Assembly (NCBI GenBank): GCA_002720865.1
Contig: PBIO01000018.1
Span: forward strand, 1-64,000
Length of the DNA: 64,000 nt
Reading direction: 5' to 3'
From: Halobacteriovorax sp.
GTDB taxonomy: Bacteria; Bdellovibrionota; Bacteriovoracia; Bacteriovoracales; Bacteriovoracaceae
The position numbers and the translations under genes were made by a program. This document shows, one piece after another, positions 362 through 53,164 of this stretch (positions within the stretch are counted from its first letter, which is position 1; every line of letters starts with the position of its first letter). The notes under the pieces are model-generated. The model was not told the origin of the DNA, made no database searches, and saw nothing but the letters and a program-made list of their open reading frames with translations.

Positions 362-766
362 ATGCAGAACTGGGATATTCAGCTTTCAACCATATTAAAC
401 GACACTTTAAAACCGATGAAGTTCGCTTTGTTTTATAATGACAATAGCACAGACGACTATCAGCTTATTTTTAGTAATATGGAAAAATATGAGGGAAGTG
501 AGTATTGGGATCCCTATTCAATCCCTTCATTAATAAGAGTTCTAACCTTAAAAAATCAAATCGTTTCTGAAACATGTTTAGAGGGGTTTTATAAAGAGCC
601 AACAACAGAGGTTTGTTTTGTTCTTGAGTGGAGCCCTAAGGCCAGAAAAATTATGGTTTTTAATACTGAAAGAGCCAAGGTCTTTGAGCAAGAAGAATTC
701 ATAAACGCCATCAATAGCGAACAAGAGAATTTAAAGAAACTCTACAATAGGATTCTTCATTTATGA
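362..766 (+). CDS. Hypothetical protein upstream of a PilZ protein
   Basis: This 134-residue cytoplasmic protein has no signal peptide or membrane segment. I recognise no family. It is acidic and Trp/Tyr-containing, with a stretch VCFVLEWSPKARKIMVF near residues 85-101 that looks like paired beta strands, and a Lys/Leu-rich helical end. Its stop overlaps the start of the PilZ gene by 4 nt (ATGA), so the two are almost certainly co-transcribed and translationally coupled. By position it may be a partner of the PilZ protein. AGGAG lies 13 nt upstream of the ATG, a rather long spacing. Confidence 0.75.
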   Translation: MQNWDIQLSTILNDTLKPMKFALFYNDNSTDDYQLIFSNMEKYEGSEYWDPYSIPSLIRVLTLKNQIVSETCLEGFYKEPTTEVCFVLEWSPKARKIMVFNTERAKVFEQEEFINAINSEQENLKKLYNRILHL

Positions 767-1122
767 GTACCAATACAAGGATCTTTCCCCGTTACGAAAC
801 AGAAAATATGAAGATTCAGTTTATTGTCCCTTCTATTGAGGATAAAGAATTAAAAGTAGAAAATGTAAGCCTAGGAGGAATAAAGGTTTCTTCTCCTAAA
901 CCGATAAAATTCTCATCAAATTTTGAAACACTTTTAAAGCTTGGAAGCCAAGAGTTTAACCTTATGGCCTATACCGTATGGAAGTTAAATAAAGCGGGAG
1001 GCGAAGAAGAGAAATATAGCTACGGCTTTAGACTGGTCTTTTCAGAAGAAGACAACTACAGAAGATGGCTAACTTTTATGAAAGCTCTTCATCAACATCA
1101 AAAAAATCAAAAGAAAAAATAA
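763..1122 (+). CDS. PilZ domain protein (c-di-GMP receptor candidate)
   Basis: This 119-residue protein is essentially a single PilZ domain. The two hallmark c-di-GMP motifs are visible: an RxxxR pattern (R6 and R10, in RIFPR) and an N-x-S-x-G-G motif at residues 34-39 (NVSLGG). It ends in a basic Lys/Gln tail. PilZ domains bind cyclic di-GMP and pass the signal to motility, secretion or polysaccharide machinery; which target applies here cannot be told from sequence. It is the second gene of a coupled pair, overlapping the preceding gene by 4 nt, and converges on the radical SAM gene only 2 nt away. Confidence 0.85.
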   Translation: MSTNTRIFPRYETENMKIQFIVPSIEDKELKVENVSLGGIKVSSPKPIKFSSNFETLLKLGSQEFNLMAYTVWKLNKAGGEEEKYSYGFRLVFSEEDNYRRWLTFMKALHQHQKNQKKK

Positions 1123-1124
1123 GC

Positions 1125-2180
1125 CTAGAATTTATCTGAATGTTCTTTACGAATTTTAGCCACTTTAAGGGCCATGGGATCGCACCCAGTGTAATTCTCT
1201 GTATTCACAAAAGCGGAACCACTACTTCGATTACAGTAATGGCGAACTTCGCATTTAACACATTCTTTAAAATCACTCTGGGAGAGGTTTCTAATCTTTT
1301 TAAACTCTAAAGAATTATTCCAAATTTCTTCAAAGCTAGAATCTCTTAAATTACCAGACTTAATTGGGGCGCCAATACAAGGGAAAACCTCTCCATCAAG
1401 ACCAATGCCCACGACATTTCTAGCACAAGAACATTGGAAAGCTTCTTCAGAGTTATCGTGCCAAAACAATTCTTTATAAGGTCCATTTAAAAGGAGGTCA
1501 TATTGCTCTTTAGTAATTCCTAGCTCTTGTGAGTCTTCTGTTCCATCGTATCTAGAAGTGATTTCATCCGAGAATTGATAGGGAACACCGAGGCTCTCTG
1601 CCATTTTTATCATATTCCCAATATCGAGACAGTTACCACTATGGAGGATAAGATTTAACTGCACTTCCATATCTTCTGCGATGGCATTTCGAATTCCAGA
1701 AAGAACTGAAGCAAAACTTCCAACATCTCCGGCAAAGTCAGTATAAGTTTTTTCATCAGCTCCATAGACCGAAATATCAAGGGCACGGCAGCCCGAAGCG
1801 ACCAGTTTCTTACAAACCTCTGGAGTAAGTAAATGACCATTGGTCTTTAGACGAGACATGGACTTATTTTCTTGAACTCTAGAAATTAAATCGTAGAGAT
1901 GAGGATAAAGAAGAGCCTCTCCCCCAGTAAAAGAGATGTAGAGTGCTCCGGCCTTACACACTTGATCAATCGTAGTTAAAAACTCTTCTTTGCTAAGCGG
2001 CTCCCCTTTTAAAGAAGCCGGCATTGGTTTAGATCGATCAAAATTATAACAATGGACACATTTATAGTTACAACCAAGAGTCGTCTCAATTGTGACAAAA
2101 AGCGGGATGCAGGACTTATAAGCCGCCTCTATTGTTTGATTTAAGATTGAGGAATTCTCTCTTTTAAAGTCACGAACCAT
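1125..2180 (-). CDS. Radical SAM/SPASM enzyme of a RiPP-like cassette
   Basis: This 351-residue protein has the radical SAM CxxxCxxC motif at C37, C41 and C44 (GCNYKCVHC), followed by FTGGEALLYP, the usual SAM-binding GGE region. The C-terminal SPASM-type region holds cysteines at 250, 252, 268, 307, 310, 316 and 333, which are expected to bind auxiliary Fe-S clusters. SPASM enzymes commonly modify ribosomal peptides, for example with thioether or C-C crosslinks. It overlaps the preceding PqqD-like gene by 11 nt, so both are translated together. The likely substrate is the small peptide encoded at 5010-5195, which carries two Cys residues. That link, and the chemistry, are inference. Confidence 0.85.
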   Translation of the reverse strand: MVRDFKRENSSILNQTIEAAYKSCIPLFVTIETTLGCNYKCVHCYNFDRSKPMPASLKGEPLSKEEFLTTIDQVCKAGALYISFTGGEALLYPHLYDLISRVQENKSMSRLKTNGHLLTPEVCKKLVASGCRALDISVYGADEKTYTDFAGDVGSFASVLSGIRNAIAEDMEVQLNLILHSGNCLDIGNMIKMAESLGVPYQFSDEITSRYDGTEDSQELGITKEQYDLLLNGPYKELFWHDNSEEAFQCSCARNVVGIGLDGEVFPCIGAPIKSGNLRDSSFEEIWNNSLEFKKIRNLSQSDFKECVKCEVRHYCNRSSGSAFVNTENYTGCDPMALKVAKIRKEHSDKF

Positions 2181-2445
2181 GGAGAACTCCTAAGTCAATT
2201 AATTGCTCTACCAAAACGAGTAGATCGCTTTTTGCAACTTCTTCGTCTACCGAGAATTCTAAGCAGACCCTATCTAAAATAAGACTAAGGCTATTCTTTC
2301 CATCGAATAAAACCCAGATAAAGGAGCTCACAGAGTTTAAGCGATGAACCATTTTCTTTGATCCAAGATCCATTAGGATCACCTGGCCCTCAACTTCTTT
2401 CCATGCAACATCTGCTCTTTGTGTTAGAATTCTACTTAGACTCAT
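2170..2445 (-). CDS. PqqD-family peptide recognition protein 1
   Basis: This 91-residue protein is a PqqD-like winged-helix domain, the RiPP recognition element fold. It shows the family pattern of an early strand pair (VILMDLGSKKMVHRLN), then SSFIWVLFDGKNSL, then an acidic helix ending in LIDLGVL. Such proteins bind leader peptides and present them to the modifying enzyme. Its gene runs directly into the radical SAM gene with an 11-nt overlap, making it that enzyme's probable partner. It starts only about 20 nt from the divergent nucleotidyltransferase-fold gene. A second PqqD-like protein lies at 3824-4108. Confidence 0.8.
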   Translation of the reverse strand: MSLSRILTQRADVAWKEVEGQVILMDLGSKKMVHRLNSVSSFIWVLFDGKNSLSLILDRVCLEFSVDEEVAKSDLLVLVEQLIDLGVLHGS

Positions 2446-2464
2446 TAAATTATTCTAATTGTGG

Positions 2465-3439
2465 ATGAAACGAATGACAAAGGAATCTCTGTACCAGGGA
2501 CGAATCTTTAAAGATTACCTACTTAATCAGGAATACTTAGATTCAGAGGAAGGTCAACGTACCCTAAACGAGCATATGCTCCTGGGCTGGCTTGCCAATA
2601 AACAAGAGATTCAAGATAGCACCTTACAACCAATTGCTAAAAAAGAGTTTAAAAGACAATGGCATTTGAATCAAACTTATCAAGAAATACTTGTGGAGTT
2701 AGCTCCTAAGTTTGTAGAGGCTAATATTCGCCCCGTTTTACTCAAAGGAATAACCTTTTTAGATAAAATGTATAAAGATCTAGGTGACCGGTCCATGTCG
2801 GACATCGATATGTTCGTAAATCCAAATGAGCTCAACACCTGTGTCCTTCTTTTAGAATCGGCAGGCTTCACTAAATCTTCTTCTCAAAAATGGAGGGCCA
2901 ACTCCCACAAGCTTGAACTTATTAGGACATCTGAGGGGATTGAGACTGTTATTGAGCTTCATACAAAACTTTTTTATCATGTTGAAGAACCTAAGTGGAA
3001 TTTTAAATGTTTTTCCATTGAACCATATTTGAAGTTGGAAAGTGAAGATGAGTTTCTTTATCTTTGCACCCATGTAGGTTTTCAACATAGTTTTATGAAA
3101 CTTTTCTGGCTACTTGATTTGCATTTTATATTAAGCGGCTTAACGAACATCGATGAAAAGAAAGTTATAAACCTGGCCAAGGCTCATAAAGTGTATAGCT
3201 CATTTAGTATGACTCTTTATATTTTAAAAACATATTTTGGAACAGAACTAAATACTGAATTTAATCAAGTTCAAGAAAAACTCTCTGGCCTTAAAAAATC
3301 GCTCCTCTCAGTTTCTTATTTGATGAATCCAAAGAGTAGTATGCTTCAATACTTATCTATCAAGCATTTATGCAAAGATAGTTTTAGTGAGGCAATAAAT
3401 TATAATCTGGGCTGGATTAAAGATCGTTTTTCTTCTTAA
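2465..3439 (+). CDS. Nucleotidyltransferase-family protein of the RiPP-like cassette
   Basis: This protein of about 324 residues matches the uncharacterised nucleotidyltransferase family often found beside PqqD and HprK-like genes. The key stretch, at about residues 82-118, is LLKGITFLDKMY followed by DRSMSDIDMFV, where the S-D-I-D acidic pair is the metal-binding site of polymerase-beta-type transferases. A helical C-terminal half follows. The role of this family in peptide or polysaccharide clusters is unknown; nucleotidylation of a product or partner is plausible. It is the only plus-strand member of the cassette. Start choice is uncertain: TTG at 2459, ATG at 2465 or ATG at 2474 are all possible and none has a good ribosome-binding site. 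It overlaps the peptidase gene tail-to-tail by 23 nt. Confidence 0.7.
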   Translation: MKRMTKESLYQGRIFKDYLLNQEYLDSEEGQRTLNEHMLLGWLANKQEIQDSTLQPIAKKEFKRQWHLNQTYQEILVELAPKFVEANIRPVLLKGITFLDKMYKDLGDRSMSDIDMFVNPNELNTCVLLLESAGFTKSSSQKWRANSHKLELIRTSEGIETVIELHTKLFYHVEEPKWNFKCFSIEPYLKLESEDEFLYLCTHVGFQHSFMKLFWLLDLHFILSGLTNIDEKKVINLAKAHKVYSSFSMTLYILKTYFGTELNTEFNQVQEKLSGLKKSLLSVSYLMNPKSSMLQYLSIKHLCKDSFSEAINYNLGWIKDRFSS

Positions 3440-3839
3440 TTAAAAAAATTGAAAAAAGGTACATCAAAACCCGAGAAGTAAGTCTAGCTAACTTACCACT
3501 GACGGCCAATGATCGAGAAAGCACAATATACCAGGATAGGAAAAATGATTTGGTAAAATAATACTTATTCAATTTTCTCTTGAATCCAATCACAACGGCA
3601 AAAATATTTTCTTTAGGAATTTCTTCAAAAGAGCAAGACCAATCACCTTTAGTTACAAAAGGTCGATCGCTTATAAGCCTATGAACAATAAACTCTCCAT
3701 TGTCAGGGTCCTTAAAAAGTAAGATATCTCCAATCTCAAAATCTCCATCTTGCTCAATAGCAATCAACTCATCCCCTTCTGTAAGTAAGGGGGTCATGCT
3801 GATTCCTTTAAATGGAATATTTGCTAATTCTTTAGACAC
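3417..3839 (-). CDS. S26-type serine peptidase, SipW/ER-like (Ser-His)
   Basis: This 140-residue protein has the signal-peptidase fold signature. The nucleophile lies in GISMTPLL (S14), followed by GDILLFKD at about 38-44 and a second block, IVHRLI (H53), then TKGD at 63-66. Histidine instead of the bacterial LepB lysine is the mark of the SipW/ER-type S26B class. There is no N-terminal membrane anchor, but residues 97-135 are hydrophobic and could anchor the C-terminus. Peptidases of this class recur in lasso-type clusters and could remove the leader of the cassette peptide; that is inference. The gene overlaps the upstream PqqD-like gene by 16 nt. Confidence 0.75.
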   Translation of the reverse strand: MSKELANIPFKGISMTPLLTEGDELIAIEQDGDFEIGDILLFKDPDNGEFIVHRLISDRPFVTKGDWSCSFEEIPKENIFAVVIGFKRKLNKYYFTKSFFLSWYIVLSRSLAVSGKLARLTSRVLMYLFSIFLIKKKNDL

Positions 3840-4108
3840 AAAAGATCTTTTTTCTCAAAGGTACTTAAAATTTCAATGAGATCCGACCTAGCCTCAGTTT
3901 TACTAACTTCAAATTCATTAGTCATTTCCTCAAGAAGATCGATGAACTTAATTCTAGTTTGTAGCTTACTCCAAATAAAAGAACCCGTTGAGTTTAATTC
4001 GTGAGTGACTGGAGGATTAATATTCGTTTGAAGGACAATAATCTTTCCCCCAAGTTCTTTCCAAGTACATAACGGATTAGCTTGTATTTCCGATGTTTCA
4101 GATAACAT
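3824..4108 (-). CDS. PqqD-family peptide recognition protein 2
   Basis: This 94-residue protein has the same layout as the PqqD-like protein at 2170-2445: KIIVLQTNINPPVTHELN, then GSFIWSKLQ, then an acidic helix beginning FEVSKTEARSD. It is therefore a second recognition-element protein in one cassette. Its gene overlaps the HprK-like kinase gene by 11 nt and the peptidase gene by 16 nt, so it may serve the kinase or the protease rather than the radical SAM enzyme. The closest known setting is the set of PqqD proteins found beside HprK-related kinases in lasso-peptide and exopolysaccharide loci. Confidence 0.8.
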   Translation of the reverse strand: MLSETSEIQANPLCTWKELGGKIIVLQTNINPPVTHELNSTGSFIWSKLQTRIKFIDLLEEMTNEFEVSKTEARSDLIEILSTFEKKDLLCLKN

Positions 4109-5006
4109 TATTCCAACACTCCTTTGATTTGGTGAAATTGAGTTTATAAAAAGGGCAGCTACTTACGACCTTTGTGGCTAAATCAAGTAGCTCTTCTCTT
4201 TCCTTTGCGTCTAAATATTCCCAAAAAATATTTGCGAGTGAGGCCATAAATTTTGAAACCGCTGCTGCAACTTCTAAGTCTTCTTTTGAATCAATATGGG
4301 ATTGATTTAACCAATAAAACCCTGAGACAGGAAACTCTTTAGAAAAGTCAGTGCTATCAAAGCTAAGTCCACCAAGACCACCGGCCCTGGCATACACTTC
4401 GCCATTTTCATAGCGCATGATATTCATATCATCACCCAAGACCATTCGATCTTCTGCCATAGTCGCAATAGTTGATTTTCCGGCCCCTGAATGTCCAAGG
4501 AAAAACTGAGCTTTATTATTCGTTACCACGCATGAGCTATGCAAAAGAAAGTAACCCTTTGATAAAAGTCTTCTTGGTAAAAGCCATCTTAAACAATTAA
4601 AGATCCCATCGCTCTGTACTTCATCTAGGCTAACAAGAGCCTTTGCTACATTATCAATGCCCACGAAATCACGCTGAATGGCCGTCTCTCCAAGCTCAGT
4701 CTTTTTAATTAAGCAATCGGGATTCTCTTCTAAATCCCAATCTTCTCCCCAATTATTGGTTAAATAAATATCTAAGAAAGACTCTCCTTCTAGTGGTGTA
4801 TCTAGTTTCCAGGTTTGAGGTAAGTTACTTGTGATCTGTAAAACAAAGTTTTTGTCTCCATGAAATCTTAAACAAAAACCATGAAAGCGGTAGCTCACCA
4901 CCAAATCTGAGCAAGTTTTTTTCACAAAATCTAATTCTAATTTTTTTAAAAGATTTAACTTATTTTCAAGTAATCCCGAGTTTTGAAAATTCGGACTTAA
5001 TTCCAT
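4098..5006 (-). CDS. HPr-kinase-like (HprK-related) kinase
   Basis: This 302-residue protein has a C-terminal HPr kinase/phosphorylase-like P-loop domain. Walker A is GHSGAGKST at residues 171-179, preceded by a conserved-looking LLHSS (about 154-158) and followed by LGDDMN (190-195), which would hold the catalytic acid. The N-terminal 140 residues look like the divergent domain of HprK-related kinases in lasso clusters. Kinases of this class phosphorylate the C-terminal Ser of some lasso precursors (the paeninodin kinase is the known case). The candidate precursor here ends in Ser61. The gene starts 3 nt after the precursor stop, so it is coupled to it. Confidence 0.8.
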   Translation of the reverse strand: MELSPNFQNSGLLENKLNLLKKLELDFVKKTCSDLVVSYRFHGFCLRFHGDKNFVLQITSNLPQTWKLDTPLEGESFLDIYLTNNWGEDWDLEENPDCLIKKTELGETAIQRDFVGIDNVAKALVSLDEVQSDGIFNCLRWLLPRRLLSKGYFLLHSSCVVTNNKAQFFLGHSGAGKSTIATMAEDRMVLGDDMNIMRYENGEVYARAGGLGGLSFDSTDFSKEFPVSGFYWLNQSHIDSKEDLEVAAAVSKFMASLANIFWEYLDAKEREELLDLATKVVSSCPFYKLNFTKSKECWNNVI

Positions 5007-5009
5007 GAT

Positions 5010-5195
5010 TTATGATGTTAATTTTTTTGAGTTACAAAAATTTGGGCCGCCGGTACTTGCCTTTCTACCGCCTGAGGCTGAGCCATTGCAAAGAGCTCCA
5101 AAGGTTAACAGCTCTTCAGATTCCACCTCTGGCTTTTCATAAGGTCTCTTTTTAACCGTTGGCTTTTTTAAGTCTTCTTCTTTGTCCTTAGACAT
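5010..5195 (-). CDS. Candidate RiPP precursor peptide
   Basis: This 61-residue peptide is encoded first in the minus-strand cassette, with a GGAGAG ribosome-binding site and its own promoter. Residues 1-18 are charged. The motif YEKPEV at 19-24 fits the YxxP-hydrophobic pattern recognised by lasso-type PqqD/B1 proteins, followed at 27-33 by EELLTFG. The presumed core from about residue 34 is Gly/Ser/Asn-rich with two cysteines, C36 (ALCNG) and C54 (NFCNS), and a final SKKLTS ending in Ser61. It resembles proteins described as having a lasso-type leader, but no lasso cyclase or transglutaminase-like B2 gene is present. The product structure is unknown. Confidence 0.75.
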   Translation of the reverse strand: MSKDKEEDLKKPTVKKRPYEKPEVESEELLTFGALCNGSASGGRKASTGGPNFCNSKKLTS

Positions 5196-5267: not shown

Positions 5268-6425
5268 CTAAAAATACAAGCTTTCTAGCTTAAATAAGTC
5301 ACTCTCGGCCGATTCTTGGATAAATTGATAAGTTTTGTAACCGGCCTGGACTTCTTTATTCTTAAAGGAAGCATCCTCAATAAGGAGCCGAACTTTCTGA
5401 TAAAGACCGTCATAATCATTATTAAAATGTAGAAGGCCTGTATTGTTTGTCATTAATTCCCCTGCTCCACCTAGGCCCGTTGAAATACAGGGGATACTTT
5501 GTGAAAAAGACTCTAGGATTACTCTTCCAAAAGGCTCTGCTCTATTTGATAAGTGAAGCATTAAATCAATCGAAGAGTAGATCTCCTGAGGACTTACAAG
5601 CCCTTTATGTTCTATCAAGCTCGATTTAAAAAGCTTTTTTAAGCGGTTTAATTGAGCTTCATAATCTGAATGCTCCCCTTTTGTATGATAGATATTTTTT
5701 CCAAAGACTAAGATTTTCTCTACTCCTAAATCTTTCAATTCTTTTTCATACAGGGACGCCCAGAGGTAGAGCTCATGGAGACCCTTCCAAGGTACGCTCA
5801 TTCCCGCAAATCCCAAGACTTTAATTGAATCTTTGGGACTAATCTTGTTTTCATTAATGACTGGATTATAAATTCGAAGGGCCTTTATATCGGTAAAAAT
5901 ATCTTTAAAAGCACTTACTGTTGAATCTGAGTTTCCAATTAATACCAGATTAAACTTAGCAAAGTAACGATAGAGGAATTTTATCAATTTATTTAAACGC
6001 CCTACTTCAGGATAGTCTCTTAAATGCCAAAGAATTCGTCCTTCGTATCCAAATACAATTGCAGAGAGGAAAAGAGGAATGAAAACCTTATTTCCATTGC
6101 ACCAAATATTTTTATATTTTAAAAAGCCTTCAACCTTATAAGTAAGAACTTGCTCTAGCATTCCGAGTAGAACATTAATTAGATTTACTTTTTTTGAGGA
6201 TCGACTGGTTTTATATAAGTCTGAATTATACTTAAAACCTTTTGGCTGATCGAGCCCATTAGATTTTACGAATGACAAAGTTTCTTCTGACGCTTTTAAT
6301 CCCTCTATCTTTGGAAAATAAATATCGAATTTTTCCGGCGAATTTAAGATGCCTAACTGAGTAATAAAGCTTCTCTCAGCCCCGCCAAGTTCAGTGGTAT
6401 TTAAAAGACAGGCACAAGTTTTCAT
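5268..6425 (-). CDS. Glycosyltransferase family 4 protein
   Basis: This 385-residue GT-B enzyme has the GT4 donor-binding motif in the C-terminal domain (EPFGRVILESF followed by IPCISTGLGGAGELM), with the two glutamates seven residues apart. The N-terminus has the nucleotide-sugar GT start LNTTELGGAERSFI. It likely adds a sugar to a lipid-linked glycan on the cytoplasmic face. It overlaps the next upstream glycosyltransferase gene by 4 nt, so the two form one operon. Donor and acceptor cannot be predicted. Confidence 0.85.
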   Translation of the reverse strand: MKTCACLLNTTELGGAERSFITQLGILNSPEKFDIYFPKIEGLKASEETLSFVKSNGLDQPKGFKYNSDLYKTSRSSKKVNLINVLLGMLEQVLTYKVEGFLKYKNIWCNGNKVFIPLFLSAIVFGYEGRILWHLRDYPEVGRLNKLIKFLYRYFAKFNLVLIGNSDSTVSAFKDIFTDIKALRIYNPVINENKISPKDSIKVLGFAGMSVPWKGLHELYLWASLYEKELKDLGVEKILVFGKNIYHTKGEHSDYEAQLNRLKKLFKSSLIEHKGLVSPQEIYSSIDLMLHLSNRAEPFGRVILESFSQSIPCISTGLGGAGELMTNNTGLLHFNNDYDGLYQKVRLLIEDASFKNKEVQAGYKTYQFIQESAESDLFKLESLYF

Positions 6426-7441
6426 ATGCCCTCCACCAGGATCGCCTTGAAAAGTTTTTTATACAGATTTAGTCCATGACTGTTTATACTGTGGCTATAG
6501 GCATTTTTAGACCATTCACTATATTCATTAAGGGCGTGATCATAAAACTTAAGGATTGAGCTATCTAAAAAATTCTCTAAGACAAAGCCGTTAAATCTAT
6601 GATGAATATTTTCAGGTAAACCACCATAACATGAAACAATACTCGGTGTCTTAAAATGTCCGGCTTCAAGAGTGGTGAGGCCAAAGCCCTCGAAAAAACC
6701 CTTCTCGGAATGATCTAGGCTTAAGAGAAGATTAAAATGTGAATCCTGATAGACTTGTTGAAGCTCAGAATCTGATTTATTTAATAAGGGAATGACTTCT
6801 AATTTCTCGGTACTTTTAAAACGCGAACTCGTAATCGAAAGCTGCACCTTTCGATTTGTTAACCTGCCCAAGGACTTTGAAAAATTATAGATCCCATCAA
6901 AGTTTTTATGAGGAACATCTCTAGCAACTGAACAGAGTTTAATAACACCTTCAGAGTCAAACGTACTAGCTAAAGCTGAGTTTTCTATACCTTCAATTGA
7001 GCAGTTATAAACAAAGTCTCTTCCGTAATTTAACTGAAGGCCTTTTTCTTTTAATTTTTCCCTCGTAAAGTCTGATACAAAAAAGTTTGCCCTGGAATTT
7101 GAAAAGTAACTTAAGGTTTTTGCTTTTCCTAACTTTTTAATTAGTTTTTTTATTGGATTTGGCGAGGTGAATAAGATCTCAGATCCGTGACAAAAATTAA
7201 TCGTTTTATCCAAAGGAAAATTAGTAAGAAAGCCTCCCATATAATGGATATGAAAAAAGAAGTCTGCTTGAATATTTTCCTTTGAAAGATTTAATAGGTC
7301 TTTTGGTGATTTCCAATTAAACACTTCGACTAAAAAACCGAGTTCCTCTAAGACTTTTACGACATTTTTGCTAAAAGTGGAAAGCCCTCCTAATTTAGGC
7401 GGATAATCTGGAGTCGTAAGGTAGACTTTATAGTTTTGCAT
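6422..7441 (-). CDS. Glycosyltransferase family 4 protein
   Basis: This 339-residue protein starts with the typical GT4 opening TTPDYPPKLGGLSTF. It carries the C-terminal motif GFFEGFGLTTLEAGHFKTP, which includes the E-x7-E donor-binding pair. Probably a retaining glycosyltransferase of surface polysaccharide assembly. It overlaps the next gene by 4 nt and lies 47 nt downstream of the WecA-like transferase gene, fitting an operon in which sugars are added after the initiating step. Confidence 0.85.
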   Translation of the reverse strand: MQNYKVYLTTPDYPPKLGGLSTFSKNVVKVLEELGFLVEVFNWKSPKDLLNLSKENIQADFFFHIHYMGGFLTNFPLDKTINFCHGSEILFTSPNPIKKLIKKLGKAKTLSYFSNSRANFFVSDFTREKLKEKGLQLNYGRDFVYNCSIEGIENSALASTFDSEGVIKLCSVARDVPHKNFDGIYNFSKSLGRLTNRKVQLSITSSRFKSTEKLEVIPLLNKSDSELQQVYQDSHFNLLLSLDHSEKGFFEGFGLTTLEAGHFKTPSIVSCYGGLPENIHHRFNGFVLENFLDSSILKFYDHALNEYSEWSKNAYSHSINSHGLNLYKKLFKAILVEGI

Positions 7442-7488
7442 CTATTGTATTATATAGAATGGAGGGTAATTGAGGCAAAGGAAAAGAC

Positions 7489-8769
7489 TTAAGCAGCCTC
7501 TGAATCATCCTCTTCCTGCTCAGCTTTTTCGATTTCTTCTTTTAAAATAGTTAATTGAAAACTATCAATTTGCCCAGATTCGATAATAGTAACGTCTTTC
7601 TTTCTAAGAAAATTAATAATTGATCGAGGAGTAATCGTAATTGTATCTTCAGAGTTCCAGTATTTTTTTCCAATTAAAAAACAAATACCAGTTTGAGCAA
7701 CAATCAAAGCAACAAGAGCTAAATAAGGATGAGTCAAGATTTGAAGATAAAGAGTCCCAGCCATTGTGATTAGATACCCAAGGGCCATAATCGTCCCCAC
7801 TGATGAGGGAGTAAATCCATATTCTCGATTTAAAATATGATGAATATGGAGTTGGTCTCCTTTAAAAGGAGACTTCTTATTATAGACTCTTCTTAAGAAG
7901 CTAACACCTAGCTCTACCATAGGAAGTGTCAGAGGGATAATAGCAAGAACACCTGATCTAACGGGGCTAAAATTGTCAGCTCTTACGGCCTGCCATAAAA
8001 AGCTACTTAGAAGTAAAGTACTAAAACCAACCAAACTTCCACCAATCTCACCAAGATGAATTTTTGCAGGTTCTCTATTGAAGAAATAAAATGCGCCTAA
8101 GCAGGACATAAATAAGGCGGAGCAAATCACAATTTTAGGACTGTTATGATATGCTCCCAAGAACATAAAGGTTCCATAGGAAACCATTCCTAGTTTTAAA
8201 GTTAAGGTATCAAGTCCATCCAATAAGTTTGATCCATTGACAACTCCCAATCCCCAAAAACAAATTATGATGAATACAATCTGATTATGATGCATGGAAA
8301 GTAAATGTGAGCAAAGTGTGGCGTAAAGAACAACTGACGACACTTGTCCCATAAGCTTAACAATAGGCCTTAATTCAATTTTGTCATCAAGATAGCCATA
8401 AAGATTTATTAGAGCACCAGCGATTAAAAAATATTCGATCAAACGAATATCTTTTGCGTTAAAGACGTTAAAAAACTCAGGGAAAAATTTGCAGAAGAGT
8501 AAGCTAGCATAGATCCCTGCCCCAAGAGCAAGACCACCTAACTGAATAGCATTTGATTTAGACTTTCTTGCTGGCACATAAAAAAGCCTTTTTAAAAGCT
8601 GGTTTTGACTTCTTGATATAAGAAGTAAAACGCTAAAGAGCCCAGACGTCAGAACGAAGGAGCCTCCCATGGCCTTATATAAATTTGGATTCGAAAAAAT
8701 ATCTAAAATAAGGCCTCCATCGCCATACTTCTCATTACTTATCGGTCTTAAACTTAAGAAGTAAAACAC
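7489..8769 (-). CDS. WecA/MraY-type polyprenyl-phosphate glycosyl-1-phosphate transferase
   Basis: This 426-residue polytopic membrane protein is of the MraY/WecA superfamily. The signature motifs are present: GYLDDK at 125-130, NLLDGLD at 181-187, and HIHH at 308-311, the cytoplasmic loop motif of WecA-type members. It should transfer a sugar-1-phosphate to undecaprenyl phosphate and so initiate a lipid-linked polysaccharide. The C-terminal tail of about 65 residues is acidic and soluble, longer than in typical WecA. It heads the operon with the two GT4 genes and is divergent from another GT4 gene. Confidence 0.85.
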   Translation of the reverse strand: MFYFLSLRPISNEKYGDGGLILDIFSNPNLYKAMGGSFVLTSGLFSVLLLISRSQNQLLKRLFYVPARKSKSNAIQLGGLALGAGIYASLLFCKFFPEFFNVFNAKDIRLIEYFLIAGALINLYGYLDDKIELRPIVKLMGQVSSVVLYATLCSHLLSMHHNQIVFIIICFWGLGVVNGSNLLDGLDTLTLKLGMVSYGTFMFLGAYHNSPKIVICSALFMSCLGAFYFFNREPAKIHLGEIGGSLVGFSTLLLSSFLWQAVRADNFSPVRSGVLAIIPLTLPMVELGVSFLRRVYNKKSPFKGDQLHIHHILNREYGFTPSSVGTIMALGYLITMAGTLYLQILTHPYLALVALIVAQTGICFLIGKKYWNSEDTITITPRSIINFLRKKDVTIIESGQIDSFQLTILKEEIEKAEQEEDDSEAA

Positions 8770-8861
8770 TTGGGTATCGTTTCAAAAAATGAACATATTT
8801 TTCCTATTAAAGGTTAAAATAATAACAAGGAATTAGCCTTTCTGGAGTAAAACTATCGGGC

Positions 8862-10001
8862 ATGAAATTATGTTTTTTTGTACATGAATGCTTAATGGAG
8901 GCTGGTCACACTAGGGCCATGGTTGAGCTTATTAGGCATCTTCCAAAAGGAGCAATTGAAGAGCTCCACTTGGTCTATTTCGAAGGGGCCTCTAGCTTAG
9001 AGTTATTTCCAGAGTTTCACGGTAAAATTATCCACCACAAAGTTCCTTTTAAAGCTATCTTTCCCTTTCTCTTTAAAGCGATCTTCTTTCAGGTTTGGTG
9101 TTTTATCTTAATTAACCTCGTTCTCCCTCCTGGAATTAAAAAAATAGGAATAGGAACGGCCTGCCTTGATATCGATTTTTGTAATGTACAGTTTGTTCAA
9201 TCCCAGTGGGAGCCTTATTACTTTAAGGACAAAAGTTTCTTAAGTATTAAGACTATGTATAAGAAAATATTATTTTTCTATTTTAAGCTCTGTGAAAACT
9301 ACCTCTTTAGAAAAGAAGGCTTGAAAATATTGGCCTTAAGCGACTTTGTGAATTCCTATTTAGTTAATAAATTTAATATTAGCTCTAAAAATATCAAAAC
9401 CATATATAGCAGCGTTAATCTTAAACATTTCCCTTTGCCTAACCGGGAAAAAGTCATTGCTAAAGAAGAGCTCATTCAAGAGCATCAAGAGCTTTTAACA
9501 CTTGATTTAGAGCTACCCGTATATTTGTTTGTTGGAGCCTATGAACGTAAAGGATTAGCAAAAGCTATAAGCCTACTTATGGAGAAACCCGGAGCGCAGT
9601 TCATTATTATTGGAAAGCCAGAAAAAGGAAATAGTTTCCAATTCGATGATTCATTAAAAATATTTAAAATAGCTTTTACCACTCATATTCAAAAATTTTA
9701 TGAGTTAAGTGATGTTTTTATCTTTCCGACAATATATGAGCCTTATGGATTAGTTATTGCTGAAGCTGCCGCTATGGGAAATATCGTGTATGTTCCGAAA
9801 AATAATGTAGGAGCAAGTGAAATTCTTAAGGGACTAAAAAGCGTGAGGTTTTTAGAGGATATACAAGAGCTTCCTTTTTTAAAAGCTCCCCTTTCTAAAG
9901 ACGAAAGGATCTTGAATGCCCAAGAAGTAAGACAAAGACTTGAGGATTACAGCTGGGAAAAAGCCTCGAAGAAATTTCTTAGCTTTACCTATTCTTCTTA
10001 A
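8862..10001 (+). CDS. Glycosyltransferase family 4 protein
   Basis: This 379-residue GT-B protein has the GT4 donor motif EPYGLVIAEAAAMGN near residues 296-310 and an EAGHTRAMVELIRHL segment near the N-terminus. A hydrophobic stretch at about 67-90 may dip into the membrane. It is the only plus-strand gene of this locus, is divergent from the WecA-like gene with a 92-nt gap, and converges on the SLBB gene with a 17-nt overlap. It probably contributes to the same polysaccharide. Confidence 0.85.
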   Translation: MKLCFFVHECLMEAGHTRAMVELIRHLPKGAIEELHLVYFEGASSLELFPEFHGKIIHHKVPFKAIFPFLFKAIFFQVWCFILINLVLPPGIKKIGIGTACLDIDFCNVQFVQSQWEPYYFKDKSFLSIKTMYKKILFFYFKLCENYLFRKEGLKILALSDFVNSYLVNKFNISSKNIKTIYSSVNLKHFPLPNREKVIAKEELIQEHQELLTLDLELPVYLFVGAYERKGLAKAISLLMEKPGAQFIIIGKPEKGNSFQFDDSLKIFKIAFTTHIQKFYELSDVFIFPTIYEPYGLVIAEAAAMGNIVYVPKNNVGASEILKGLKSVRFLEDIQELPFLKAPLSKDERILNAQEVRQRLEDYSWEKASKKFLSFTYSS

Positions 10002-10551
10002 CTTCTCTGTAAAGCAAAATACTAGAAAGTACCGTGGCGACGACTCCGATTAGGCCAGTATAATAAGCTCTGTCTTCTTGCCAATAATCTTTTTCAACAA
10101 AGACCATATCGCCGGGTCTTAAGGTTTTTAGAGCAGCTTCGTTATTTCCACCTTTTTCAAGGTCATAAAATTTATTATCAAAACCTCCTTTATCCCCTTT
10201 TCGCATCAATTTGACATTATCAATTCTGGCCTGAGGGTTTGGGCCGCCGGCATAACTAATCCCTTCTAAGAGAGAAGTTTCTACGGGAACAAAATGAAGA
10301 CCTGGTCTTTGAAAGTAGCCCCAAAAATGAACAGGAATTAAAACCTTTCCTTTTATAGAAGGCGAGTAATAAACAGAACCCGCAGACTTTCCAATATTTT
10401 TAGTCTCAGACGGAAGAGCTAGTCGACTTAAATCATAATCAACATTGTCTGTTGGCTTTTTATTCTGAGCAAATACAGACCCGGAGCTAAGCAATAAAGA
10501 GAGGTTTAAAAGTAGAACTTTAAAGTGTTTCAATAGTGTTTTTTCAATCAT
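9985..10551 (-). CDS. SLBB-domain polysaccharide export-like protein, short
   Basis: This 188-residue protein has a signal peptide (hydrophobic 10-25, ending near VFAQ), an SLBB-like beta-grasp region at about 65-150 (VPVHFWGYFQRPGLHFVP, then SLLEGISYAGGP, then LRPGDMVFVEKDY), and a C-terminal membrane segment at about 163-180. The SLBB domain is the ring-forming part of Wza-type exporters. The N-terminal Poly_export domain of Wza is missing and the C-terminal helix anchors the protein differently, so it may be a periplasmic adaptor. It follows the O-antigen ligase gene in the same direction. Confidence 0.7.
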   Translation of the reverse strand: MIEKTLLKHFKVLLLNLSLLLSSGSVFAQNKKPTDNVDYDLSRLALPSETKNIGKSAGSVYYSPSIKGKVLIPVHFWGYFQRPGLHFVPVETSLLEGISYAGGPNPQARIDNVKLMRKGDKGGFDNKFYDLEKGGNNEAALKTLRPGDMVFVEKDYWQEDRAYYTGLIGVVATVLSSILLYREVKKNR

Positions 10552-10566
10552 TTTAATATGCTAGCA

Positions 10567-10584
10567 CCACCATTTTCATGGTGG
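10567..10584 (-). other. Perfect hairpin between ligase and SLBB genes
   Basis: A 7-bp perfect inverted repeat (CCACCAT and ATGGTGG) with a 4-nt loop sits in the 43-nt spacer before the SLBB gene. No T-run follows, so it is not a standard terminator. It could block exonucleases or tune translation of the downstream gene. Confidence 0.4.
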
Positions 10585-10594
10585 CAAGCAGGAT

Positions 10595-12154
10595 TTACGC
10601 ATTTTGTTGAAGCGTTATTTTCTTGGGATAGGCCTTATAAAAGCTGGTAAAGGCAATGGCCAAGTAAAGCCAATAAAACTGAAACTCTGGGGGAAATAGT
10701 ATTCCAATGGCCCCCCACTGACCTAAGGTTGTTGCGGTCACCATTACGAAGCAATAGCAGACTATCCTATAGACCATAAAGTTCTTTCGTCTTAAGGCGG
10801 TTATCATCAAGGAAGCGAGAATAAACGGAGTCACTATAACTGTAGAGATGATGAAGAGACTTCCTAATCCCATCTCTGTGGCCACATGAGCGAAAAAATT
10901 ATCCATGGTCCAATATAAATTTTGATCCACATCGACACTTTCTTTTCTTCTTTGACCATAAGCTTCAAGATAATTCGTGGCCATTCCAAGACCAAGGCCT
11001 AAGGGGTTTTCTAGTCTTCGACCGATTGCACCAAGACCAGCACTAAAAGAGGCCCTCCTACTGGCAGCTTTATCTAGGCTGTTTACGGCCTCATATCGAG
11101 CAACAACTTTTTCAACAGTCATATACTCACTCAGTCCCTTCGATTGACTTAATCCATAGGCCCCGAGGATGACAAAAGCTGCTATACCCACTGCAATACC
11201 TATAATTCTTTTAGCAACAAATCTGGTTCCTAGAATCGAGAAAAATAGACCAATAGAAATCACAAAGATTTCTTTAAAGAAGCTTGATCTCACCTGCGAT
11301 ATAAGAACGGCAAAAAGAGATAATACAGTAAAAGAAAAAATAAAAAGTTTTTTAGGAGTACTCAACTTCTGAGCTTCGTCCCCGCCGGGCTGAACTGACC
11401 AAAGAAAGATAAAAGCTGAAGATAAATAAAAATGAGAAGCATAGCCTCCAGGCTGGTCGGTCGTTCCCCAAGGCCTAAAGTGTTGAACGGAGGAGAAGTT
11501 TTTGTATTTTTCAAACAAAGTCGCATAATTATTGCTAATAGAGTACATAAACTCAGTCCCTTGGGTGGACTGAAAAATAGCCAATAAAGCCTCTAAAACT
11601 ATGAAGAACATAAAAGTCTTCAAGAAGTCTTTAAAAAGCCTTGAGGTAGGGTCTAATTCAAAATTTAAAATCGTAAAAAAATAGAAGATTGGTAGAATAT
11701 AAAACTTACCGGCCGCGAAGGAAGGTATAAAGCCCGCCCCTAGTGGATTAAAGAGACAAACAACAAACCATAAAAAATGGCCTAATAACATCCAAATAAA
11801 AAAGTTGGGTGTCCTATGAAAATTAATAATCCTACCTGTTTTAGCAAAACTTCTAAATACAAGGATAACAATTTGAAAATCACTTATTAGACGAAAAAAA
11901 GGATTATAGCCCCAGATCACTTTAATTTGTCCCGCCACGAGAGAATATAAAATCACAATAAAAAATGCCTGATCCCAGCGAAGGAAAATTACGGCTAAAA
12001 AAGAAACGATGGCTAAAACGGCACCTGAATAGAGAGTCATAGGAGAACCGAGAAAATTAAAGAGGAAATGTATGGTCATAAAAACCATAAAAGCACGGAG
12101 AAAATATATCTGCTCACCAAGTCTATGTGTGGTCTGCTCTACTACATTGTCCAA
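10595..12154 (-). CDS. O-antigen ligase/polymerase (Wzy/WaaL-type) membrane protein
   Basis: This 519-residue protein has about 11-12 hydrophobic segments and the large periplasmic loop typical of WaaL/Wzy enzymes, at about residues 330-420. That loop contains RRASFSAGLGAIGRRLENPLGLG, close to the usual pattern of a basic residue followed by NPLxGxG. It would join polysaccharide repeats or ligate them to an acceptor in the periplasm. It lies between the Wzz-like gene and the SLBB gene, all on the minus strand, forming a Wzy-dependent export set. Ligase and polymerase cannot be told apart by sequence alone. Confidence 0.75.
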   Translation of the reverse strand: MDNVVEQTTHRLGEQIYFLRAFMVFMTIHFLFNFLGSPMTLYSGAVLAIVSFLAVIFLRWDQAFFIVILYSLVAGQIKVIWGYNPFFRLISDFQIVILVFRSFAKTGRIINFHRTPNFFIWMLLGHFLWFVVCLFNPLGAGFIPSFAAGKFYILPIFYFFTILNFELDPTSRLFKDFLKTFMFFIVLEALLAIFQSTQGTEFMYSISNNYATLFEKYKNFSSVQHFRPWGTTDQPGGYASHFYLSSAFIFLWSVQPGGDEAQKLSTPKKLFIFSFTVLSLFAVLISQVRSSFFKEIFVISIGLFFSILGTRFVAKRIIGIAVGIAAFVILGAYGLSQSKGLSEYMTVEKVVARYEAVNSLDKAASRRASFSAGLGAIGRRLENPLGLGLGMATNYLEAYGQRRKESVDVDQNLYWTMDNFFAHVATEMGLGSLFIISTVIVTPFILASLMITALRRKNFMVYRIVCYCFVMVTATTLGQWGAIGILFPPEFQFYWLYLAIAFTSFYKAYPKKITLQQNA

Positions 12155-12226
12155 TTTAAATCCATGAATGGGTTCTCTAATAGAATATCAGAGAACCTAA
12201 AAAAAATAAGAATTTTAACGAATAAC

Positions 12227-13732
12227 CTAGTGAAAGTCGGGGGTATTTCCGATGATTTCTAAATCTTCGAAATTATTCTTAAGCTCGTATTCATCGTAAA
12301 TTCGGCCATCGAAAATATATCTTAAGATGACGATGAATAATAAAAGAAAGCAAGAAAAGAATATTGAAACAAAAATCATCTTAGTTTTCGCAATCTTTTT
12401 ATAACTAGATAATTCAGATTGATAGTTATCAAATACTAAGTCCGCAACAATCGTAGATTCAGCAAGCCTCAGTTGTACTAGTTTTTGCTCCAACAATTTA
12501 ATTAACTCTAGATTTGGTTGATATTCTTTAATTTGAACCTCTAGCTCAGTGCTCTCTTTTGTAAGTTTTTCTAGCTCTGTTCTAACTTTTTCAAATTCAA
12601 CACTTGTTTTAGAAAACTGATTTTTAATTACATTATAATTATGCTCACTTGTTGCCTTTGAGTTTTGCTTTCCTTTTGCAAAGCTCTCATCAACACCGTA
12701 TTTTTCCACATCACCAAGTGAAGCCAATTTTCTTTCATTAGTTTTAAGCTCTTGCTTAAGCTTTTTAGTAATCTCACTTCCATTAATTTGGTTTTGATTC
12801 TCAAAAGAAAGTTCAATACTAGCGATATCTTCTCTTAGTTGCTTTACTCGCTCTCTTAGCTTTTTTGCTTCAGTAACTTTAAAGAGCTCAGAATTCGTTG
12901 ATTTGTTTTTCTTCGCCAGAGTCTTTTTCGTTTGGCTAAGCTCAGTCTCAAGTCTATTTAGTCTAGATTTTTCACCGAAATAGTGCTGTCTAATCGAGTT
13001 AAGCCGGTTATTGGCCGTTTTAATCTTAACTTTAAACTGTGCTTGTTGATCTAGAAGACCTTTTATCATCTCTAGGTCCACTTCCTTTTTCTTTTTCTCT
13101 AAAAGCTCTTCAGAAATTTTAACTTGAGAAGTAACAAAATATCTAATTTGATTAAGCCTATCATTTTGTATGGCCTTAGAGACCACTTTTACTAGAGTAT
13201 CTGTCGTATTATGATCGAGTGATCTTACTGTGAGGCTATAACGATCTATCACATCATTTGACATATTTACTGAATAAAACTGACCTACTAGCCTAGCCAC
13301 TTTATCTCTTTCGCAGTCTTTATTACCGGAACAGGCCTTAAACATAGACTCAAATGTTTTTAGTTTTCGACTTCCAATAGAGTTGAAGTTTAGTTTTCTA
13401 AACTGATCTGACCTAATTAGCTCATCTGCAACTTTGTATTGAAAATCAACTGAATTCCCATAAGAGATAATTTCTGTCGGGTCCAAAGTAGAAGTTTTTT
13501 CACCTAGCATGGAAAAGATCATGCCGCTGGGTGAGTTACTAGCTTCATTTACATATTTAAAGCCAACCTTTCCACTATAAATTGTATTTTGCCCCATATA
13601 GGTATAGGAGGAATATGCAGCGGCTATAAGTGGAACTGAAATCGACAAAATCTTATATCGCTTCACCAGTTTCCACAAAAAAGGAAAGTTAATAATAGAT
13701 GTCTCATTTAAGACAATATTTAGCTTTTTCAT
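12227..13732 (-). CDS. Wzz/GumC-type chain-length determinant protein
   Basis: This protein of about 501 residues has N- and C-terminal membrane segments (about 28-45 and 455-477) flanking a long periplasmic region with extensive heptad-like coiled coil at about 190-440. This is the layout of Wzz and GumC co-polymerases. I place the start at 13732, where ATGA overlaps the upstream stop by 4 nt and GGAGG lies 8 nt before; a longer in-frame start at 13750 is less likely. Cys residues at about 133 and 138 may form a disulfide. It is coupled to the degenerate BY-kinase-like genes, the normal cytoplasmic partners of such proteins. Confidence 0.8.
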   Translation of the reverse strand: MKKLNIVLNETSIINFPFLWKLVKRYKILSISVPLIAAAYSSYTYMGQNTIYSGKVGFKYVNEASNSPSGMIFSMLGEKTSTLDPTEIISYGNSVDFQYKVADELIRSDQFRKLNFNSIGSRKLKTFESMFKACSGNKDCERDKVARLVGQFYSVNMSNDVIDRYSLTVRSLDHNTTDTLVKVVSKAIQNDRLNQIRYFVTSQVKISEELLEKKKKEVDLEMIKGLLDQQAQFKVKIKTANNRLNSIRQHYFGEKSRLNRLETELSQTKKTLAKKNKSTNSELFKVTEAKKLRERVKQLREDIASIELSFENQNQINGSEITKKLKQELKTNERKLASLGDVEKYGVDESFAKGKQNSKATSEHNYNVIKNQFSKTSVEFEKVRTELEKLTKESTELEVQIKEYQPNLELIKLLEQKLVQLRLAESTIVADLVFDNYQSELSSYKKIAKTKMIFVSIFFSCFLLLFIVILRYIFDGRIYDEYELKNNFEDLEIIGNTPDFH

Positions 13733-14577
13733 CCGAAAATCCTCCACCAAGGTTTCTTAAGTTTTTCCTCGGCTTCCTCTTCTTTAAGTTTTTGTTTTGT
13801 ATCAAATAATAAACCTTTTAAATTAATTCCATACCCCATAAAGAAGTTTTGAACTTCTTTTACATCTTTTGAGTTGCTTAATGATTGAGCCACAATAATG
13901 GATAGGCTTTCAAACTTCATAATAACGGGGAAATACTTCTCTGAATCCTTCTTAATCTTATGCAATTCTGGGACATCCCAAAAAATCAGATCATAGTTAT
14001 CAACTAAGTTATCAAATACTTCATCGTAACTAGCTGAAGACTCATCATTTGAGATTTCAAGCAGATTATCTAAATCAAAAAAATCAAAATGTCCGTAAAA
14101 TTGAAAATAGTCGCAGGGCTCTTCTCCCTCACCAATTTCAAGTTTTGCCTTCTTCGAAATCGAAACAATATCCTTGAATGCACCTTCGTTTAAATTATCT
14201 GAAACAATAGCTATCTTTAAATCATCTTTATGATCAAAGAAACTAGCTAATCCTAAAATACTTGTTTGTTGACTTGTTTGATATCCTGTTGAGGAAACGG
14301 CAAAGGATTTGACCCCACATTTATAGTCCTCATAAAAGCTACTCCCAATCTTAAAGAGTTCATGATGGTTACTCACTTTATAGAAGTACTTATTGGATCT
14401 TTTTTTATCTTTACTAGTAGTTTCGGGGCTAGGTCCTGGCTGACCAACTTGAACAGCAATTAAAAGTTCCGGCTTTGGGAGCCCAACTTTAGCCTCAGGA
14501 ACCTGACCTACAGACTCCTCCGGCTTCTCTACAGAAGAGAGCTGATTCTCTTTGAATTTCAGCTTCAATCCTGCCAC
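13729..14577 (-). CDS. BY-kinase/ParA-like protein lacking Walker A (copy B)
   Basis: This 282-residue protein has a Pro/Lys-rich N-terminus of about 75 residues, then a fold like the cytoplasmic BY-kinase (CpsD/Wzc-C) domain. At the P-loop position it reads FAVSSTGYQTSQQTSILGLASFF, with no GKS/T. The later YDLIFWDVPEL matches the Walker B region, YDxVIIDTPP, but with altered chemistry. There is no Tyr cluster at the C-terminus, which ends KKPWWRIFG. ATP binding is therefore doubtful and it may be a structural partner of the Wzz-like protein. It is a paralog of the neighbouring gene, immediately downstream of it and abutting. Confidence 0.65.
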   Translation of the reverse strand: MAGLKLKFKENQLSSVEKPEESVGQVPEAKVGLPKPELLIAVQVGQPGPSPETTSKDKKRSNKYFYKVSNHHELFKIGSSFYEDYKCGVKSFAVSSTGYQTSQQTSILGLASFFDHKDDLKIAIVSDNLNEGAFKDIVSISKKAKLEIGEGEEPCDYFQFYGHFDFFDLDNLLEISNDESSASYDEVFDNLVDNYDLIFWDVPELHKIKKDSEKYFPVIMKFESLSIIVAQSLSNSKDVKEVQNFFMGYGINLKGLLFDTKQKLKEEEAEEKLKKPWWRIFG

Positions 14578-52411: not shown

Positions 52412-53164
52412 ATGAGCAAAATATTAAGGCAATACTTACCAGATATATTTTTTGAAAAGAAAGGAGTTAGATCTGCATCCACGATCCTCCTAATTGCTTT
52501 GATAATGCTTGTCGTTGAATACTATGGCTGGCAAGGCCCATTTTTTAATTTTGCAAAAAGCTCCCCTCTTTTGAGGTTTGAAGATAAAAATATGGTCTTT
52601 TTTATGGCCCAAGTTTTTACTTCATCAAGCTTCGCTCTCTTTTTCTTTTTAATTCCACTTTGTTTCAACTTCTTTTTACCAATCGATCCGGACAATAACC
52701 AAGTGGGTTTATCTCTACCAAAGAAAGGCACTCTTCTTAAAGACTATGCCCCTCTAGTTATCATAATGATTCCTGTACTGTGGATTGCTTGTTCAAATCC
52801 TTCTTTTTATAAATTTTATCCACTTTATAAACCCACCAGTTTAAAGATGCTTCTCTTATACGAAATTGTTTATCTTACCCAATTTGTTTCGGTTGAGTTC
52901 TTCTTTAGAGGTTTTGGGATTTTTCGTTTAGAAAAACTTTGTCCAGGATATGGAGTTCTACTTATGGTAATTCCCTATTCTTTTGTTCATATACATAAAC
53001 CCTTTGGTGAGGCTCTAGGAAGTATAATTGCTGGTGTCATCTTAGGAAGGCTGGCCCTTAAATCTAATTCCATTTGGCCAGGAGTTTTAGTCCATGCTTG
53101 TATAGCCTTATCAGCGGACCTCTTTAGTCTTTATCATTCAGGAAGATTAGCTCAGCTCTTTTAG
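52412..53164 (+). CDS. CPBP-family intramembrane metalloprotease
   Basis: This 250-residue polytopic protein has the CPBP motif in VEFFFRGFGIF (ExxxR) near residue 165, HIHKPFGEALGS near 190, and LVHACIALSADLF near 228. These are the conserved blocks of the Rce1/Abi family. Members are membrane proteases or protective proteins. It is the last gene of the operon with the serine hydrolase and lipoprotein and overlaps the Rieske gene tail-to-tail by 18 nt. Confidence 0.85.
   Translation: MSKILRQYLPDIFFEKKGVRSASTILLIALIMLVVEYYGWQGPFFNFAKSSPLLRFEDKNMVFFMAQVFTSSSFALFFFLIPLCFNFFLPIDPDNNQVGLSLPKKGTLLKDYAPLVIIMIPVLWIACSNPSFYKFYPLYKPTSLKMLLLYEIVYLTQFVSVEFFFRGFGIFRLEKLCPGYGVLLMVIPYSFVHIHKPFGEALGSIIAGVILGRLALKSNSIWPGVLVHACIALSADLFSLYHSGRLAQLF

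Follow-up and report, generated by a model that had tools for sequence, protein, structure and literature searches.

The stretch of DNA analysed here, called the window throughout, covers positions 1 to 64,000 (forward strand) of contig PBIO01000018.1 from Halobacteriovorax sp. (assembly GCA_002720865.1), a member of the Bdellovibrionota, a largely predatory phylum of bacteria. At 1125-5195 it carries a compact seven-gene cassette for a ribosomally synthesized and post-translationally modified peptide (RiPP), and there is good support for regarding this cassette as a combination of lasso-type tail tailoring with SPASM-type RiPP maturation, the chemistry being read from homology. The explanation favoured here, to which a probability of about 0.6 is given, is that the cassette is a RiPP system of the Bdellovibrionota whose product is modified, tailored at its tail and acts, jointly with a giant protein of the gingipain (C25) peptidase family, at the cell surface. 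A preliminary description of this DNA had already recognized the seven open reading frames (ORFs), and Pfam and NCBIfam agree with the way in which they were named:

1125-2180 (-): radical S-adenosylmethionine (SAM)/SPASM enzyme of clade A, 351 amino acids (PF04055, E 2.4e-21; PF13186, E 9.3e-12; tree; PDB matches SkfB and PqqE)
2170-2445 (-): PqqD-like RiPP recognition protein 2, beside the radical SAM gene (PF05402, E 2.7e-13)
2459-3439 (+): NTP_transf_5 protein of nucleotidyltransferase fold (PF14907, E 2.4e-29; invariant residues; AlphaFold model)
3417-3839 (-): S26 (Sec11/SipW-type) peptidase with a Ser-His dyad, candidate leader peptidase (NCBIfam sigpep_I_arch, E 2.9e-7; Sec11 profile match)
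3824-4108 (-): PqqD-like RiPP recognition protein 1, an extra copy (PF05402, E 2e-10)
4098-5006 (-): HprK/PEPCK-fold kinase, 302 amino acids (weak sequence matches; invariant residues; fold matches of an AlphaFold model)
5010-5195 (-): precursor peptide, 61 amino acids (ORF, homologues, alignment, Tyr-Cys spacing, purifying selection)

The nucleotidyltransferase gene lies on the strand opposite to the other six and is convergent with the peptidase gene. The window begins at a contig end, so that the left flank of the cassette is cut and its left side is not seen.

The precursor peptide and its conserved core

The 61-residue peptide, earlier put forward as a candidate precursor, is the product of a real gene and not of a chance ORF, because it is preceded by a GGAGAG resembling a ribosome-binding site, has homologues in 35 of 369 Bdellovibrionota genomes and is under purifying selection, with proportions of synonymous (pS) and nonsynonymous (pN) differences of 0.77 and 0.20, respectively, relative to a homologue from the same genus. 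Neither Pfam nor NCBIfam gave it any match at E up to 1. Its leader (residues 1-35) contains the motif Y19xxP22xV24, and the predicted core (residues 36-61) reads CNGSASGGRKASTGGPNFCNSKKLTS. The motif YxxPx[IVL] is present in all 36 precursors collected, and in 30 of these the distance from its Tyr to the core Cys is 17. In the lasso precursor BsfA, Tyr(-17), Pro(-14) and Leu(-12) of the leader are regarded as the binding residues for B1, a PqqD-type protein (PMC10368454), and the start of the core was placed at Cys36 because the spacing found here equals the Tyr(-17) rule of BsfA.

The core opens with an invariant Cys and contains at least two Cys in every precursor, with CNG...GGRK...C...LxS as its typical pattern; in an alignment of the first 16 precursors Cys1, Gly3, Gly7, Gly8, Lys10, Cys19 and the last residue are invariant or nearly so. 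That last residue is Ser (33) or Thr (2) in all 35 complete sequences, the one apparent exception being a precursor cut by a contig end, and the penultimate position takes eight different identities among the same 35. Relative to the homologue from the same genus, pN is 0.07 in the core and 0.30 in the leader, and the cassette enzymes show dN values of 0.26-0.57. The core is thus the slowest-changing part of the cassette, which makes a fixed surface function likelier than that of a variable bacteriocin.

Recurrence across the Bdellovibrionota

The 35 genomes found with the precursor profile represent 23 genera from several families, and separate searches with the kinase and with the precursor returned nearly identical sets of genomes among the strong matches. 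The named carriers are Bdellovibrionota metagenome-assembled genomes (MAGs), including Halobacteriovorax, Bacteriovoracaceae and Bdellovibrionales. A contig scan with a subset of the precursor alignment returned seven named Bdellovibrionota MAGs; two matches in Paenimyroides were judged to be due to chance, no cassette being present there. Nearly always, a genome has a single copy of the precursor gene.

A conserved small peptide gene was looked for in homologous cassettes and is present in the 36 loci that were mapped, 26 of which contain all six protein types (those with fewer are mostly cut by contig ends). Precursor, kinase, PqqD and radical SAM enzyme occur together in all 30 uncut loci, and S26 and NTP_transf_5 in 26 of them, a count that for S26 includes separate and fused domains, since the S26 profile alone had absorbed a kinase-S26 fusion and given an inflated 34. 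Both proteins are missing from the same four loci (L061, L113, L119 and L127), and therefore the two probably make up a single optional step or, at these four loci, act in trans. The second PqqD copy of the window, PqqD 1, is found in few cassettes.

Two unusual arrangements were also observed. The cassette at L127:3600-8196 is divergent and comprises three radical SAM/SPASM genes, one PqqD, the kinase and a precursor with a three-Cys core ending in Ser. At L066:8081-14408 there is a distant paralogous cassette of kinase, radical SAM enzyme, PqqD and proteins resembling S26 and NTP_transf_5, with a different possible precursor that ends in TPS.

Enzymes of the cassette

The window radical SAM enzyme has SkfB and PqqE as its closest relatives of solved structure. 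The radical SAM enzymes of the cassettes partially match 73 NCBIfam families, none near its cut-off, and the best of these matches are a mix of heme, PQQ (pyrroloquinoline quinone) and peptide maturases; naming a function from NCBIfam was rejected because such matches mostly reflect the shared radical SAM domain. In a tree the enzymes fall into two clades, A (which includes that of the window) and B, both paired with the same core motif. Placed on the kinase tree, approximately four changes between the A and B types are needed, of which the starred branches force one; this suggests, short of demonstrating it, that radical SAM enzymes have been swapped between cassettes.

Sequence searches with the kinase gave weak matches (PEPCK_ATP, 2.5e-6; HprK_rel_A, 2.5e-4), and those in a plasmid collection were short and weak only, such as to Paracoccus serine kinases. 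The AlphaFold model, with a predicted local distance difference test score (pLDDT) of 91, matches PEPCK (Z 15, root-mean-square deviation 5.1, 250 residues) and also HPr kinase, so that the HprK/PEPCK fold, weakly indicated by sequence, is confirmed by the predicted structure. Invariant residues in the kinase alignment (A3) are R112, D113, H156, G171, S173, G176, K177 and D193, with D192 nearly so; the window kinase thus retains the His, P-loop Lys and two Asp (H156, K177, D192 and D193) expected of a lasso-type HprK-like kinase. In lasso systems, PadeK and ThcoK phosphorylate the C-terminal Ser of the peptide, this Ser has been called extremely conserved among kinase-bearing clusters, and PsmN, annotated as a nucleotidyltransferase, attaches hexoses to phospho-Ser (PMC9266682). 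By analogy, the kinase probably phosphorylates the C-terminal Ser of the precursor; both this phosphorylation and a subsequent nucleotidylation or glycosylation are proposed on the basis of homology and of the invariant Ser/Thr at the end of the precursor.

The NTP_transf_5 protein retains the KG, R and D-x-D residues typical of the nucleotidyltransferase fold, the invariant positions of its alignment (A5) being K96, G97, R111, D115, D117, K151, E166 and H168. Its model (pLDDT 88) has weak best fold matches, including ANT(2'')/LnuA, and the PDB holds no sequence relative of it; a PsmN-like action on phospho-Ser is accordingly put forward by family membership only. No paper on PF14907 turned up in the collection of papers searched. 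The S26 protein, weak in Pfam (0.015) and recognized by NCBIfam and Sec11 profiles, retains two motifs of Sec11/SipW-type peptidases, G-x-S-M and H-R, with G12, S14, M15, H53, R54, G65 and D66 invariant in its alignment (A4). Natural fusions join the kinase to S26 in L055 and the radical SAM enzyme to S26 in L051.

A giant C25 protein as partner of the cassette

Comparison of the flanks revealed the strongest partner of the cassette, which lies outside coordinates 1125-5195 and had been missed by the preliminary description, namely a giant secreted protein of ~2,500-3,300 amino acids encoded beside the cassette in 18 of the 36 mapped loci. Its C-terminal region matches Peptidase_C25 (1e-58) and two models of PorU (4e-48 and 2e-40), and reaches 164 of the 420 bits required by the NCBIfam PorU model NF033707, that is, it stays below the cut-off. 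The N-terminal part is long and repetitive, and the protein mostly ends in GGGC[ST], a transmembrane (TM) segment and a basic stretch; this Cys-TM-basic pattern was seen by eye in 13 complete tails, and for the giant of L052 no MYXO-CTERM model was among the matches listed at E up to 1. In eight loci the giant gene probably heads the operon, since it abuts the precursor gene on the same strand with a spacing of -29 to +19 nucleotides.

Giant and cassette co-occur even where they are unlinked. Among the 369 genomes, 27 have both, eight the cassette only, four the giant only and 330 neither (p 9.6e-30), and among 182 genera 19 are shared by the 23 with the cassette and the 21 with the giant (p 6.5e-20), both tests counting related genomes as independent. 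A number of the exceptions come from incomplete drafts or from genomes with the most divergent precursors. In one genome the giant C25 gene (G272:C90:1477-4506) has an internal TAA and no precursor was detected, a possible case of joint decay.

It has been reported that PorU of Porphyromonas is implicated as a sortase that cuts its cargo and attaches it to anionic lipopolysaccharide (PMC7468200), and that myxosortase cleaves MYXO-CTERM tails, which have an invariant Cys, to anchor proteins at the surface (PMC11980579). These parallels serve as leads to the function of the giant protein and not as tests of it. The C-terminal region of the giant resembles PorU, the type IX secretion sortase of the gingipain family; what sets the giant apart from PorU is its long, repetitive N-terminal portion together with its Cys-TM-basic tail. 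No paper linking C25/PorU proteins with radical SAM RiPPs turned up in the collection of papers searched. The window itself contains a third, small C25 peptidase at 54536-56179 (-), 547 amino acids long with a signal-like N-terminus, 49 kb from the cassette. At 52412-53164 (+) a CPBP-like intramembrane protease was noted by eye (EFFFRG motif), which is a candidate processor of the giants' tails because CPBP proteins include myxosortases.

Comparison with known systems

Phosphorylated or glycosylated lasso clusters, such as those of paeninodin (PadeK), pseudomycoidin (PsmK/PsmN) and Bradymonas (bsf), share with the cassette the YxxPx[LIV] leader motif at the same distance from the core (PMC9266682, PMC10368454), together with a PqqD-type RiPP recognition element, an HprK-like kinase, a nucleotidyltransferase and, except in bsf, a conserved C-terminal Ser. 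Unlike them, the cassette has neither B2 protease nor lasso cyclase, and shows instead a SPASM radical SAM enzyme, an S26 peptidase and a two-Cys core. A search for the B2 family (PF13471) in the whole genome of the window gave nothing above the cut-off (best E 0.061), and an asparagine-synthetase-like cyclase is absent from the cassette, the search for it not having been genome-wide. Identity as a lasso peptide was rejected on these two grounds. Family searches and locus maps thereby bear out the earlier proposal that a SPASM enzyme is here associated with lasso-type kinase, PqqD, nucleotidyltransferase and peptidase but not with B2.

A similar set of kinase-like, PqqD-like and SPASM proteins occurs in the SynChlorMet cassette (TIGR04248-TIGR04251), which comprises ScmC, the PqqD-like ScmD and the radical SAM/SPASM proteins ScmE and ScmF. 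The window kinase matches ScmC weakly, and membership was rejected since all scores are far below the curated NCBIfam cut-offs (ScmD, 29 of 100 bits; ScmC, 20 of 125; ScmF, 87 of 400); in addition, none of the named Scm models matched stands for S26, NTP_transf_5 or a giant C25 protein. The collection of papers searched contained none on SynChlorMet. With the PqqE/SkfB-type maturases of PQQ, sporulation killing factor and subtilosin, the window enzyme has its radical SAM and SPASM domains in common; it differs from them in that no equivalog cut-off is reached and in that two radical SAM clades serve one precursor family. A SPASM enzyme with a Cys-containing core is also a feature of sactipeptides and ranthipeptides.

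Proposed pathway and alternative explanations

From the genes, their conservation, their catalytic residues and their co-occurrence, we infer the following pathway. The PqqD protein or proteins would bind the YxxPx[IVL] leader and present the precursor to the SPASM enzyme, which would modify the conserved 26-residue core with its invariant Cys1, Lys10 and second Cys (here Cys19), most likely by a C-H crosslink such as a thioether. The HprK-like kinase would phosphorylate the invariant C-terminal Ser/Thr, and NTP_transf_5, where present, may add a sugar or nucleotide to the phosphate, in the manner of PsmK/PsmN acting on pseudomycoidin, a lasso peptide. The S26 protein is a candidate for freeing the core at the leader-Cys boundary, before Cys36, and the product would work at the cell surface with the giant PorU-like C25 protein and its Cys-TM-basic tail.

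Several points weigh against this pathway. The two radical SAM clades are far apart, so that the chemistry may differ between cassettes, and the absence of S26 and NTP_transf_5 from four intact-looking loci makes these proteins inessential to the core pathway unless they are supplied elsewhere. Similarity of the window kinase to the characterised lasso kinases is very remote, and BsfK, a characterised relative, phosphorylates an internal Ser (PMC10368454). In the window's genus the giant genes lie apart from the cassette; the window's genome has two giants, both on other contigs. The p-values above ignore relatedness among genomes. An ABC-2 ATPase/permease pair is encoded near ~16 loci, and its permease was looked for in the window's genus and not found.

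In a more far-reaching form of the proposal, the modified peptide would be a built-in part or a substrate of the giant protein in a new surface system of this predatory phylum. For example, the peptide, modified by the radical SAM enzyme and carrying phosphate and sugar at its C-terminus, might be a linker that the C25 domain cuts, gingipain-like, at the conserved Gly-Arg-Lys and joins to proteins or glycans of the surface, for use in cell-surface assembly or prey contact. This form is tentative and, as matters stand, rather unlikely. Similarly unlikely is processing of the peptide to a conserved small molecule, either a redox cofactor or a pheromone comparable to PQQ or mycofactocin, that the kinase and nucleotidyltransferase decorate or activate and for which the giant protein is the user enzyme or receptor. 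A core more conserved than leader and enzymes, the nearly constant single gene copy and the PqqD plus SPASM architecture, as with PQQ and mycofactocin, all agree with such a role; on the other hand, conservation extends over the entire 26-residue core, C-terminus included, and not merely over one or two residues, and no dedicated dehydrogenase is seen among the conserved neighbours.

The partial similarity of the SPASM enzyme to SkfB, StsB and AlbA, the two conserved core Cys and the ABC-2 exporter pair would suit an ordinary antimicrobial of the sactipeptide or ranthipeptide type with optional tailoring, but we regard this as distinctly unlikely, given that the core is under the strongest purifying selection of the cassette, a single motif is shared over 23 genera, no immunity gene was seen, the exporter was not found in the window's genus, as stated above, and there is a tight association with a giant surface protein. 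It is less plausible that kinase, PqqD and nucleotidyltransferase are an accessory set serving exopolysaccharide assembly or regulation, with the peptide as primer or anchor of the adjacent polysaccharide. Polysaccharide genes do adjoin the cassette, both in the window and in its relative from the same genus, and glycosyltransferases lie near 12 of the 36 loci, but half of the mapped cassettes adjoin the giant C25 gene instead and the precursor bears a full RiPP leader. Finally, a divergent lasso cluster with protease and cyclase encoded elsewhere, as leader motif and spacing, terminal Ser, kinase, PqqD and nucleotidyltransferase might suggest, is highly improbable in view of the B2 search, of the radical SAM enzyme standing in place of B2 in uncut cassettes and of Gly-Gly-Arg at about core positions 7-9, where lasso macrolactams require Asp or Glu.

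Neighbouring genes

763-1122 (+): PilZ-like protein of the cyclic di-GMP receptor family (PF07238, E 5.5e-4, just under cut-off; homologues in six loci)
5268-15984: polysaccharide locus adjoining the cassette

The PilZ-like protein is a possible regulator whose membership in the system is uncertain; six loci have a homologue adjoining the cassette or close to it, which hints at cyclic di-GMP control. The polysaccharide locus contains, by eye, glycosyltransferases, a polymerase-like membrane protein and export and chain-length proteins, and the relative from the same genus (L050) also has such genes close to its cassette. A general association with exopolysaccharide loci, as the preliminary description had considered, is not borne out by the locus maps, in which it is occasional; what stands of that description is the reading as a non-lasso RiPP with lasso-type tail tailoring. 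Elsewhere in the window's own genome (L148/L149; C14, 481-528 kb), a stretch of 44 kb encodes six or more SPASM-domain proteins, interspersed with sugar-nucleotide and transporter genes; this seems to be a locus for surface glycans and not a RiPP cluster.

Significance

The cassette joins two RiPP logics that are usually treated apart, namely lasso-type leader recognition and tail tailoring, and radical SAM modification of the core. As the precursor is unusually conserved, its product probably does one fixed job across the phylum, and the near-exclusive co-occurrence with a giant PorU-like protein provides a concrete handle on what that job is. The proposed link to a PorU-like surface system, if true, would mean that a peptide-based surface system exists beyond the type IX world of the Bacteroidota.

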